64,000 nt of DNA from Mobilicoccus pelagius NBRC 104925 (lineage in GTDB: Bacteria > Actinomycetota > Actinomycetes > Actinomycetales > Dermatophilaceae), in the NCBI RefSeq assembly GCF_000247995.1, contig NZ_BAFE01000009.1:62001-126000 (forward strand), given 5' to 3'. Under the pieces are notes generated by a model. The model was given only the letters and a program-made list of their open reading frames with translations. It was not told the origin of the DNA and ran no database searches. A program made the position numbers and the translations under genes. How positions within the stretch are numbered: position 1 is the first letter of the stretch; every line of letters starts with the position of its first letter. This document shows, in pieces, positions 36,369 to 44,775 of this stretch.

Positions 36369-37370
36369 TCAGCGGGCGGTGGCCGTGGCCGAGCTCGTCG
36401 CCGGGGCGGGGGAGTCGGTGGCGGACGTGGACGCCTTCGTCATCGCGTCGGCGATCGTCTCGACGAGCTGGGGCAGGCGCGGTCCCCACCGGGAGGCGAT
36501 GTCGGCGTCGACGGTGACGATGTTCCCGTTCTTCACGGCGGCGACGTCGGCCCAGCCGGGGCGCTTCTTCACGTCGTCGGCCGTGTAGTCGACCTGGTCG
36601 GTGATGACCATGAGCTGCGGGTCGGCCTTGACGACGGCCTCCTCCGTGAGCTGCGGGTAGCCCGTCTTGTCCTTGTCGGCGGCGTCGGCGATGTTCGTCG
36701 CGCCCATCTTCGTGTAGATGGATCCGAGGAAGCTGTGCGAGCTCGCCGAGTGGTACTGGGAGTCGAGCTCGTGGTAGATCCGCACCGGCTTGTCGGGGGC
36801 CTTGGCGAGGGCGGTGGCGATGTCGTCGCGCATCGTGCGGACGACCTGCGCGGTCTCGTCGGCGTGGCCGGTGGCCTGGCCGAGGACGGCGATCTCGTCG
36901 TAGCCCTGGTCGAGCGTCGTGGGTGCGGGGGAGAGGAACACGGGCACGCCGAGCTTCTCGAGCGCGGCGGCGGTGCCGCCCGTGTCGTTCGACATGACGA
37001 CGAGGTCGGGCTTGTACCCGGAGATGGCCTCGACGTTCGGCTCGAAACCGCTGAGGTCGGTCTTGGGTGCGTTCGCGGGGTAGGTCGAGTACTCGTCGGC
37101 GGCGACGACCTGGGTGCCCGCGCCGATGGCGAAGAGGGACTCGGTGGCCGACGGCGACAGCGACACGATGCGCGTCGGCTGCTTGTCGAGGGTGACCTCG
37201 CCGAGCGGGGTGTCGACGGTGACGGGGTACGTGACGTCGGAGGTGACCGCGGCGGTGCTCGTGCCGGGGGTGGGCGTGGACCCGGCGGACGGGGGCGCGT
37301 CGTTCTGGGACGAGCAGCCGGCGATGACGAGCAGCAGGGCGGTGGCCGCGGCGAGGGCGACTGGGCGCAA
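36369..37370 (-). CDS. btuF: Corrinoid-binding lipoprotein (BtuF-like)
   Basis: A 333-residue substrate-binding lipoprotein when started at TTG 37370, which has GAGGAGG five bases upstream. This places a compact signal peptide with lipobox VIAGC (cysteine 19) right at the N-terminus; the longer ATG-initiated frame from 37565 would run through the riboswitch and is rejected. The fold begins TRIVSLSPSATESLFAIGAG, typical of BtuF/FhuD-type class III binding proteins, and ends before a Ser/Thr/Ala-rich tail. It would capture cobalamin or cobinamide for BtuCD. Control is by the cobalamin riboswitch in its leader. Confidence 0.86.
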   Translation of the reverse strand: MRPVALAAATALLLVIAGCSSQNDAPPSAGSTPTPGTSTAAVTSDVTYPVTVDTPLGEVTLDKQPTRIVSLSPSATESLFAIGAGTQVVAADEYSTYPANAPKTDLSGFEPNVEAISGYKPDLVVMSNDTGGTAAALEKLGVPVFLSPAPTTLDQGYDEIAVLGQATGHADETAQVVRTMRDDIATALAKAPDKPVRIYHELDSQYHSASSHSFLGSIYTKMGATNIADAADKDKTGYPQLTEEAVVKADPQLMVITDQVDYTADDVKKRPGWADVAAVKNGNIVTVDADIASRWGPRLPQLVETIADAMTKASTSATDSPAPATSSATATAR

Positions 37371-37374
37371 GAGA

Positions 37375-37424
37375 TCCTCCTCGGGGATCGAGGCGGGGCG
37401 TGCCCGCCGGTGCGTCGAGGAGGA
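37375..37424 (-). promoter_or_regulatory. Shine-Dalgarno-hiding hairpin of btuF
   Basis: In the mRNA (minus strand) CGAGGAGGA, which contains the btuF ribosome binding site (37375-37383), is exactly complementary to TCCTCCTCG 33 bases upstream (37416-37424). Pairing would hide the ribosome binding site. It lies downstream of the riboswitch aptamer and fits an expression platform acting on translation. Confidence 0.65.
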
Positions 37425-37531
37425 CCGGCCGGAGAAGGGAGCCGGACGTCGCCCGGTCTGCCGTGTGTCCGAACCGCCCCAGACCTCGAGAGCGTGGTGA
37501 TCGGGTGTCGGCGAAGCTCGACCGGACTCGT

Positions 37532-37631
37532 CCGCGCGCAGGCCGTGTGGCTCGGGCGGCGTCACCGTTGCGGGTCAGTGCCGGGATCTACCGGACTTCG
37601 TCCCGCCGACCCGACCACCGTAGCGCGCGCA
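37532..37631 (-). ncRNA. Cobalamin riboswitch aptamer
   Basis: On the minus strand GAAGTCCGGTAGATCCCGGC is followed by CTGACCCGCAACGGTGA, matching the conserved core of cobalamin riboswitches (GGUG-N-UCC, CnGnCCCGCnACnGU). A degenerate B12 box GAGCCACACGGCCTGC follows at about 37554-37538. The ends pair: GCGCGCGC (37630-37623) with GCGCGCG (37539-37533) forms a closing P1 stem. It lies about 160 bases before btuF. The B12-box match is imperfect, so I keep some doubt. Confidence 0.75.
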
Positions 37632-37693
37632 CGCAAGGTTGCTCCCTGGGACCCGACCGCGCCCTCCCCGCACACGTCGCTTCGACCCGGGTG

Positions 37694-38054
37694 TCAGCCC
37701 CGTGACTCCTCCAGGCACCAGGCGTGGTCGTCCTCGACGTCGAACCGTCCCCAAGTTCGGTGCGCAGGCGACGGAACGCCTGCTCCATGCCGTCGGCGTA
37801 CGCCTCCCGCTCGACCGCGTCGGACCAACCCGTGTGGGGGTCGAACCGGGCGAAGAGATCGCCGCACCTGGACAGGAGATCCGTGAGGTCGGCGGACAGC
37901 CGAGGTCGGACGGCTCCAGCGGGTAGTCCTCCCCGCCGGTCTCCCAGAGGGGTCAGCGACGACCGTAGTCGTGGGAGAACCGCACCACGCGCGTCGGATC
38001 CGCCTGTCGCAGGGGGCCCCAGCGTGGGTCGGCCGGTGCGAACGCGTCTCGCAT
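37694..38054 (-). pseudogene. Broken small actinobacterial gene (one nonsense codon, two frameshifts)
   Basis: On the minus strand ATG 38054 starts MRDAFAPADPRWGPLRQ and VVRFSHDYGRR, then hits TGA; in the same frame PLWETGGEDYPLEPSDLG continues. A one-base loss near 37900 moves the frame to SADLTDLLSRCGDLFARFD and VEREAYADGMEQAFRRLRTELGD. Another one-base loss near 37745 moves it to RFDVEDDHAWCLEESRG and a stop. Joined, this gives a coherent protein of about 120 residues resembling small acidic hypothetical proteins of actinobacteria (FSxDYGxxPLW ... RL...L). No function is known. Both losses fall in short C/G runs, so sequencing error is possible for the frameshifts, less so for the stop. 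Confidence 0.7.
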
Positions 38055-42711: not shown

Positions 42712-44775
42712 TCAGGCCTCCTTGCGGTCGCGGGGCGCGGCGGCGTCGTCGAGGTGGATGCGGATGTTGAGCCATTCGTCGATCTCGGCGCGGGTGCCGG
42801 GCGGCACGACCGTCGTGGAGTCGAACTGGTCGACGATCGCCGGCCCGGAGAACGTCGTCCCGGCGGGGAGGGAGTCGCGGTCGTGGACCGGGGCCTCGAC
42901 CCAGCCGGTCTCCTCGAACCACGCACGGCGGTGGGAGGCGGGCTCGGGGTCGGCCGTGCCGGTGCGCTCACGCTTGGGGAACGCCGGCTTCGGCGTCGTG
43001 CCGATCGCGCTGAGGCCGAGCTGGTAGAGCTCGACGGGCGCGTCGTCGCGGCGGAAGGCGAACTCGCGTTCGTGCTGCTCGTGGAACCGGGCGACGGCCT
43101 CCTCCAGCGCATCGGGGCCGGAGCCGACCTCGACGGCGAGGGAACGCCATTGGCCCTCGTACCGCATGCTGATCGACCGCTGGAGGACGGCGTTCTCGGG
43201 GCCCACCCCCTCGTGGCGGAGCCGTTCGCTCGCCTCGGCCTCGAGGGCGGTGAACGCCTCCTCGAGCTCGTCGGGGTCCACCTCGTCGGCGTCGTGGTGG
43301 AACATCGTCGTGAGGTCGTGGCGGATGTCGACGAGAAGGCAGCCGAGCGCCGAGGTCACGCCCGGGTTGGGCGGGACGATGACGGTGGGGATCGACAGCT
43401 CCTTCGCCACCTCGGCGCCGTGCAGCGCGCCGGCGCCACCGAACGCGACGAGGGCGAAGTCGCGCGGGTCGAGGCCGCGGCGGATCGAGACGAGGCGCAC
43501 CGCGTCGGACATGTTCGCGTTGGCGACCTTGAGGACGGCGCCCGCCGCCTCCTCCCGCGACATGTCGAGCGGCCCGGCGACGTGCTCGTCGAGCGCCTTC
43601 TCGGAGCGGTCGCGGTCGAGGGTCTTCGCGCCGCCCGCGAGGGTGGTGCCGAGTCGACCGAGGGCGAGGTTGGCGTCGGTGTTCGTCGCCTCCGTGCCGC
43701 CCGTGCCGTAGCAGGAGGGGCCGGGGTCGGCGCCCGCGGACTGGGGACCGTTGCGCAGGGAGCCGGCCGGGTCGATCCACGCGAGCGAACCGCCGCCCGC
43801 GCCGATCGTGAGGACCTCGATGCTCGGGAACATGATCGGGTGGCCGTACTCGACCTGCCACTCCTTGGTGACGCGGAGTTCGCCGCCGTGGACGACGCAG
43901 ATGTCGGTGCTCGTGCCGCCCATGTCGAGGCCGATCGCGTTGTCGTACCCGCACTGGGTCGCGATGTGCCGACACGCGATCGCGCCGGCCGCGATGCCGG
44001 AGGCCGCGAGACGGACGGGGTACTGGGAGACCATGCGCGGCGTCATCGAGCCGCCACCGGAGTGGAGCAGGAGGAGGTCGCCCTCGTAGCCGCCCTCCTC
44101 GAGCCGGTCGGCGAGGCGGTCGACGTATCCGCTCACGAGCGGGGCGAGGACGGCGTTCGCGACCGTCGTGTTGAACCGGTCGAACTCGAAGATCTCGGGA
44201 AGGATCGATGCCGAGGTCGAGATCGACGCCTCCGGCATCTCCTCGGCGAGGATCTCCTTCATCCGCTCCTCGTGGGCCGGGTTGGCGTAGGAGTTGAGGA
44301 AGCAGACCGCGACGGTGTCCGCACCACGCCGACGGAGGAGCTTGGCGAGACGCCGGGCCTCCTCCTCGTCGAGGGGCTCGACGACCTGGCCGTCGTAGTC
44401 GATGCGCTCGGTCACCTCGAAGCGGTCACGGCGACGGATGTAGGGCGGCGTGACGTCGTGGTAGGCGTCCCACAGGTCGTCCTTCGTCCCGTCGCGGATC
44501 TCGAGGACGTCGCGGAACCCCTTCGTCGTCACCATGGCCGCGGCCGGGAAACGCCGCGTGATGAGAGCGTTCGTCGCGACGGTCGTTCCGTGCGAGAAGA
44601 GGGACACGTCCGAGAGCTCGATCTGCGCGCGCTCGACGCCGGCCATGACGGCACGCATCGGGTCGTCGGGCGTCGAGGGGACCTTGCTGACGTAGGACTC
44701 CTTCGTGTCCTCGTCCACGACGAAGACATCGGTGAACGTTCCGCCGACGTCGACGGCGACTCGCTGTGGGCCCAC
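42712..44775 (-). CDS. hyuA: Hydantoinase A/5-oxoprolinase family protein
   Basis: A 687-residue ATP-binding subunit. The phosphate-binding motif DVGGTFTDVF is at residues 9-18, followed by SHGTTVATNALITR, and the second ATPase motif IGLDMGGTSTDICVV; CLLVDIRHDL and GPAIVDQFDSTTVVPPGT mark the C-terminal part. I start at GTG 44775 because AGGAGG lies six bases upstream; an in-frame ATG (44790) just before it overlaps that Shine-Dalgarno and could add five residues. With hyuB it forms a two-gene operon, divergent from the PucR-type regulator. Confidence 0.92.
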   Translation of the reverse strand: MGPQRVAVDVGGTFTDVFVVDEDTKESYVSKVPSTPDDPMRAVMAGVERAQIELSDVSLFSHGTTVATNALITRRFPAAAMVTTKGFRDVLEIRDGTKDDLWDAYHDVTPPYIRRRDRFEVTERIDYDGQVVEPLDEEEARRLAKLLRRRGADTVAVCFLNSYANPAHEERMKEILAEEMPEASISTSASILPEIFEFDRFNTTVANAVLAPLVSGYVDRLADRLEEGGYEGDLLLLHSGGGSMTPRMVSQYPVRLAASGIAAGAIACRHIATQCGYDNAIGLDMGGTSTDICVVHGGELRVTKEWQVEYGHPIMFPSIEVLTIGAGGGSLAWIDPAGSLRNGPQSAGADPGPSCYGTGGTEATNTDANLALGRLGTTLAGGAKTLDRDRSEKALDEHVAGPLDMSREEAAGAVLKVANANMSDAVRLVSIRRGLDPRDFALVAFGGAGALHGAEVAKELSIPTVIVPPNPGVTSALGCLLVDIRHDLTTMFHHDADEVDPDELEEAFTALEAEASERLRHEGVGPENAVLQRSISMRYEGQWRSLAVEVGSGPDALEEAVARFHEQHEREFAFRRDDAPVELYQLGLSAIGTTPKPAFPKRERTGTADPEPASHRRAWFEETGWVEAPVHDRDSLPAGTTFSGPAIVDQFDSTTVVPPGTRAEIDEWLNIRIHLDDAAAPRDRKEA

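Follow-up and report, generated by a model that had tools for sequence, protein, structure and literature searches.

Introduction

B12 elements preceding btuFCD have long been known in bacteria generally. The leader considered here lies in a stretch of 64,000 nucleotides from Mobilicoccus pelagius NBRC 104925 (contig NZ_BAFE01000009.1, positions 62,001 to 126,000; the whole stretch is called the window, and coordinates are counted from its first letter), on the minus strand 5′ of a btuF-like gene with a TTG start at position 37370, the first gene of a putative btuFCD operon. Judged by comparison with related leaders, it is a divergent member of the known riboswitch class. It has in common with the Rfam families RF00174 (Cobalamin) and RF01482 (AdoCbl, adenosylcobalamin), both of clan CL00101, the helix P5, the CCCGCAAC core and the helix P6 formed with the B12 box, and differs from them by its P6 (CGG/CCG), by GGTCGA in place of GGTCGCC, by a short loop L5 and by a short P6 extension.

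Two described switches are close to it in the way that ligand binding is coupled to expression. In the sections of the publication cited here (PMC11260477), the metE switch of Mycobacterium tuberculosis masks its translation start in the ligand-bound state by a strand complementary to the Shine-Dalgarno sequence (anti-SD and SD, respectively), as is proposed below for the window. In the apo form of that switch a further strand pairs with the anti-SD strand and so frees the translation start; when ligand is bound, this further strand forms a hairpin with L13 as its loop (same sections). About 60 nt separate this strand from the anti-SD strand in both systems. The window has a predicted hairpin P13 with a loop that might pair either with L5 or with the anti-SD strand, and this fits the published three-strand model. 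The P6 extension of the metE switch is large and carries a second four-way junction, whereas that of the window is short. The metE corrinoid riboswitch of P. megaterium, in the parts of the account used here (PMC10653944), likewise uses the 3′ side of P13 both in P13 itself and in an expression-platform helix that competes with it, but this platform is a transcription terminator and not an SD hairpin as in the window; the same parts consider that several coupling mechanisms probably exist among such switches. For acI actinobacteria, cobalamin and AdoCbl riboswitches have been reported before energy-coupling factor (ECF) modules that are putative cobalamin transporters (PMC5301498, in the portion cited). 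Among the titles listed by our literature search none concerned the actinomycete btuF leader group, most subscription journals being outside the reach of that search.

Results and Discussion

Homology of the leader with cobalamin riboswitches

The region from about 37611 to 37371 (minus strand, as are all leader features below) is very probably a compact cobalamin riboswitch that represses translation of btuFCD. Comparison of orthologous leaders supports the aptamer (closing helix, P5, P6 and B12 box), the P13 hairpin and the pairing of a pyrimidine strand with the SD sequence. The reading of the first-pass annotation, in which a cobalamin riboswitch hides the SD in a hairpin before the genes of a BtuFCD-type ATP-binding cassette (ABC) importer, is the best supported one, although several of its details have to be revised.

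Relatives of btuF were sought in 97 relatives, where weak matches (L015–L035) were not counted, in 394 genomes at the class level and 396 at the order level (77 and 11, respectively, with a match at E ≤ 1e-40, own genome included in both), and in named genomes of Nocardioides, Actinomadura, Nocardiopsis and others, which contributed 17 loci. The resulting comparison set comprises 107 loci with a clear btuF relative, including the window copy (L006), some near-duplicates and seven leader pairs with identical core stretches; a match in genome G220, broken by a contig end, was left out. The core CGCAAC[T/G/C]G occurs upstream of btuF in 105 of the 107 loci, L050 and L074 being without it. Analysis of the individual elements covers 104 loci, after omission of these two and of L090 with its atypical P13. 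From the set 40 representatives were chosen, 39 of which enter the pairing tests (L123 has nothing between P13 and SD); P13 was placed by eye in eight leaders, and the start codons of L115, L119, L124 and L128 were reassigned further downstream.

Two covariance models carry the assignment. Model R1, built from 38 of the 40 representatives without the window copy and L065, matches the window leader over its full length with 66.1 bits (E = 2.4e-14), the next-best place in the 64 kb scoring 10.9 bits. Model R2, built from 30 leaders, omits in addition L007, L008 and L036, which form a clade with the window, as well as L066, L085, L101, L108 and L110; it still recovers the window leader at full length with 49.6 bits (E = 1.3e-10), together with the omitted L007, L008 and L036 and the leaders L108 and L101 with altered P6. 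The E-values of both models are rough, as the tool itself states. Over all loci R2 finds 105 of the 107 at E ≤ 0.01 (72 of 74 and 33 of 33), its 30 own members among them, and these are the same 105 that carry the core, no match being obtained for the core-less L050 and L074. The leader therefore shows homology, in sequence and in predicted structure, to a group that includes members accepted by Rfam, and we assign it to the cobalamin riboswitch class because models built without it and without its clade match it.

Aptamer and transcript start

The aptamer core CCCGCAACGGTGA at 37574–37562 and the B12-like box AGTCCGGTCGA at 37528–37518 are present as first annotated; the box has the same sequence in L007, L008 and L036 and agrees with the R1 match. 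Within them, the 5′ strand of P6 (CGG, 37567–37565) pairs with its 3′ strand (CCG, 37525–37523), so that the window, too, combines the CCCGCAAC core with a P6 formed between core and B12 box. The odd CAACGG of the window core (instead of CAACTG) is offset by CCG (instead of CAG) in the B12 box. At the middle position of P6, 33 of the 40 leaders have U-A, five including the window have G-C, one has C-G and one U-G. In an alignment of 38 leaders from which the window was excluded, 12 of 21 predicted pairs stay paired through two-sided changes. The P5 hairpin (CCGG-TAGATC-CCGG, 37594–37581, loop L5 at 37590–37585) is placed from the Rfam alignment, the relatives and R1; its loop is one base shorter than L5 of L007, L008 and L036.

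The closing GCGCGCG stem of the first-pass annotation was not confirmed: it appears in the single-sequence minimum-energy fold, but has no counterpart in L007, L008 or L036, and, with a candidate -10 element just downstream of it, would probably lie outside the transcript. This putative element, TACGGT (37622–37617), corresponds to a TANNNT motif before GAAG in relatives, which stands 23–25 nt before GAAG in all four members of the window clade and, at a distance of 20–42 nt, in 16 of the 40 representatives (4.7 expected, and 6 of 40 when a control stretch is taken). Among all 104 leaders 35 have the motif where 9.9 would be expected, but the control stretch shows it in 19. A generic promoter scan returned no promoter. 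Transcription likely starts near 37611, downstream of GCGCGCG, and for this reason GTCGGCGGG (37610–37602) and TTCGCCGAC (37515–37507), which pair with each other, are taken as the two strands of the P1-P3 closing helix. Its junction-side columns vary on both strands in relatives with pairing kept, the register at the junction being uncertain. A helix between GGTGGTCGGG and CCCGATCACC (37619–37610 with 37505–37496) was rejected as P1, its 5′ part lying at or before the likely transcription start.

Expression platform

The P13 hairpin (CGCTCT-CGAGGTCT-GGGGCG, 37494–37475, with L13 as its loop) begins 12 nt past the closing helix, and its arms match within sequences: 242 of 280 cells are paired in the 40 leaders, window included, against a mean of 214 and a maximum of 231 in 5000 arm shuffles, for a structure that was predicted from the same alignment. 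Further downstream, the anti-SD strand GGTCCTCCTCG (37426–37416) faces the strand CGAGGAGGATC (37383–37373), which holds the SD sequence AGGAGGA (37381–37375). In the predicted fold they form an SD-hiding stem of 11 bp including one G-U pair, the loop of which contains a second, small hairpin (GGCGGG-CACGC-CCCGCC, 37408–37392). Nine bases, TCCTCCTCG (37424–37416), are indeed exactly complementary to the SD-holding CGAGGAGGA (37383–37375), as first noted, with a spacing of 32 bases and not 33. The anti-SD strand with the next base also contains CCTCGA (37420–37415), complementary to TCGAGG of P13 (37489–37484).

A Watson-Crick run of at least nine between the SD and the preceding 90 nt arises in 86 of 20000 shuffles, which is unlikely but not extreme taken alone, so the case for the hairpin rests more strongly on the conservation of this arrangement among relatives. 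Among the 39 representatives the pairing of each SD with its own leader averages -13.9 kcal/mol, compared with -10.8 kcal/mol when SD sequences are permuted and -10.4 kcal/mol for base-shuffled leaders; none of 20000 permutations was as good, a count made optimistic, like the other permutation counts, by related leaders among the 39. After collapse to 16 groups the median z-score is -6.0, and among the representatives the window leader has no better pairing partner than its own SD. Anti-SD strand and SD are thus matched within lineages.

Over the family L13 pairs with its own leader better than chance, 86 of 20000 permutations being as good; when contiguous pairs alone are considered the count is 30 of 20000, and for the neighbourhood of the anti-SD strand it is 137 of 20000. 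In L109, L115, L117 and L128 the L13 loop and the anti-SD strand change jointly (GGAGGAA/TTCCTCC in L115, GGAGAAG/CTTCTCC in L128); these changes appear to be the clearest single case for a competing L13/anti-SD pairing.

From these elements the following mechanism can be proposed. A corrinoid, probably adenosylcobalamin, would bind at the P3-P6 junction and stabilise the docking of L5 to L13, whereby P13 would hold; the anti-SD strand would then pair with the SD and block the start of the ribosome. Without ligand P13 would open, its loop and 3′ arm would take up the anti-SD strand, and the SD would be free. Scarcity of B12 would consequently turn import on, and abundance of B12 would turn it off. 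The switch does not account for the TTG start, as the first-pass annotation had it to do, the assigned start codons behind orthologous leaders being ATG, GTG or TTG.

Observations that weigh against the proposed switch

A number of observations speak against this reading. No match at the gathering score was found in the whole window with Rfam release 15, and a permissive search of 37330–37720 gave RF00174 at 37595–37522 with 14.5 bits only (E = 0.15), 31.5 being needed. The RF00174 check proposed with the first annotation thus yields a sub-threshold match and comes close to refuting it, although models made from orthologous leaders recover the leader, and Rfam alone does not decide its identity. 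The gathering score is a curated cut-off and not a structural feature; among 20 orthologous loci scanned with Rfam, five reach it (RF00174 or RF01482) and 15 fall short. The window copy also has the lowest R2 score of the 105 matching loci, its L5 is a base short, and its whole leader does not fold more stably than shuffled sequences (z-scores of -0.65 and 0.09). Regarding the role of L13, its pairing with the anti-SD strand is modest after collapse to 16 groups (median 3.5%), and the window leader is paired better by 14 of the 38 L13 loops taken from other representatives than by its own. Lineage matching between L5 and L13 gives conflicting results (410 of 20000 permutations as good for a wide L5 stretch, 5197 of 20000 for the loop alone); at the window a pairing AGATC/GGTCT is possible. 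The link of L13 to either L5 or the anti-SD strand is therefore weaker than the SD pairing and, at the window itself, is not distinguished from chance.

Alternative explanations

A pattern scan of 37340–37900 found no intrinsic terminator, which makes translational OFF control the most likely. Control could also, or mainly, be transcriptional if Rho-dependent termination followed once translation is blocked. We consider this unlikely, the conserved feature being the SD pairing, and Rho action would in any case add to SD masking and not replace it.

Distinctly unlikely, too, is that the switch is of the cobalamin type but that its clade prefers another corrinoid, such as methyl- or hydroxocobalamin or a B12 precursor, through joint changes in the pocket. 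Junction residues set the ligand choice of cobalamin riboswitches, and the window, L007, L008 and L036 have in common several changes around the pocket, namely A or T before CGAAG (G in most leaders), CGG/CCG in P6 and GGTCGA for GGTCGCC, the latter strand being present in most other representatives and in none of these four. Against an altered preference, the P6 change is just compensatory, and the core is kept. An extended version, in which the four leaders would form an aptamer sub-type whose P6, base before CGAAG and GGTCGCC strand changed together towards another corrinoid preference, and in which an SD-mimicking P13 loop would leave a single pyrimidine strand to choose between loop and SD, seems quite improbable.

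Direct pairing of L5 with the SD region, for which P13 would not be needed, can be drawn with six Watson-Crick pairs in the window (AGATCC, 37589–37584, with GGATCT, 37377–37372), but was set aside as very improbable, the pairing by eye not being kept in L007, L008 and L036 and P13 being conserved instead. The least credible explanation, a decaying aptamer left after the operon was gained from elsewhere, would suit the low Rfam score, the lowest score of the 105, the shortened L5 and the poor btuF match in the same genus (see below), but is at odds with intact P5, P6 (by compensation) and most P13 pairs, and with an SD that no other representative's betters in fitting the leader.

Transporter genes and genome context

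The proposed cobalamin riboswitch with SD masking precedes three genes on the minus strand in the order F-C-D: a btuF-like lipoprotein substrate-binding protein (37370–36369, Peripla_BP_2), a btuC-like permease (36361–35237, FecCD) and a btuD-like ATPase (35240–34362, ABC_tran). For these proteins the NCBIfam models of BtuF, BtuC and the corrinoid ATPase are the best or near-best, with the latter two ranking first for permease and ATPase, and none reaches its cut-off; for the permease a 'putative F420-0' model nearly equals BtuC (237.1 and 237.9 bits). All three subunits show distant similarity to the Escherichia coli BtuF/BtuC/BtuD importer, in each case below the curated equivalog cut-off, and the PDB matches of the btuF-like protein include B12-binding proteins, ranked after an 'iron-binding protein'. 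The proteins alone do not establish the substrate. That the operon encodes a likely corrinoid importer, as first annotated, is what we infer from regulation, gene order and distant BtuF/BtuC similarity taken together.

In the 19 loci examined btuC always adjoins btuF, and btuD is found in 11, some loci ending early or lacking a match. The operon is flanked in the window by miaA (PF01715) and dapF (PF01678), neither of which was detected at E ≤ 1e-15 in the 19 other loci (at most about 11 kb each). In three genomes of the same genus the best match to the btuF query has an E-value of only 9.1e-13. A gain or loss of the btuFCD operon is likely. Elsewhere in the window, a hydantoinase B/oxoprolinase-type protein (PF02538) is encoded at 42737–40698 on the minus strand.

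The same genome contains five RF00174 matches above cut-off, a further point in favour of the switch. Behind them lie cobB and cbiM (both above cut-offs), a cobN fragment, an ABC substrate-binding protein and, in one case, a frame that matches nothing. The highest scoring of them (L001, G000:C4:91876-92099, 89.3 bits) stands before an open frame starting MNTLSLPS, for which no NCBIfam match at 1e-5 was obtained. Another (L002, G000:C88:23542-23724, 83.7 bits), on the same contig as the window and outside it, precedes the ABC substrate-binding protein, whose best model, a 'putative F420-0' transporter, stays below cut-off, as does that of the cobN fragment. Lying behind this switch, the protein may take a corrinoid- or cobalt-related compound as its substrate.

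Implications

With the leader, a generic FecCD-type transporter gains a likely substrate. The leaders, about 100 in number, form a ready set for testing the co-evolution of the L13, anti-SD and SD strands. As 15 of 20 orthologous loci miss the Rfam gathering score while R2 matches 105 of 107, B12 control of import may be under-annotated in actinomycetes.
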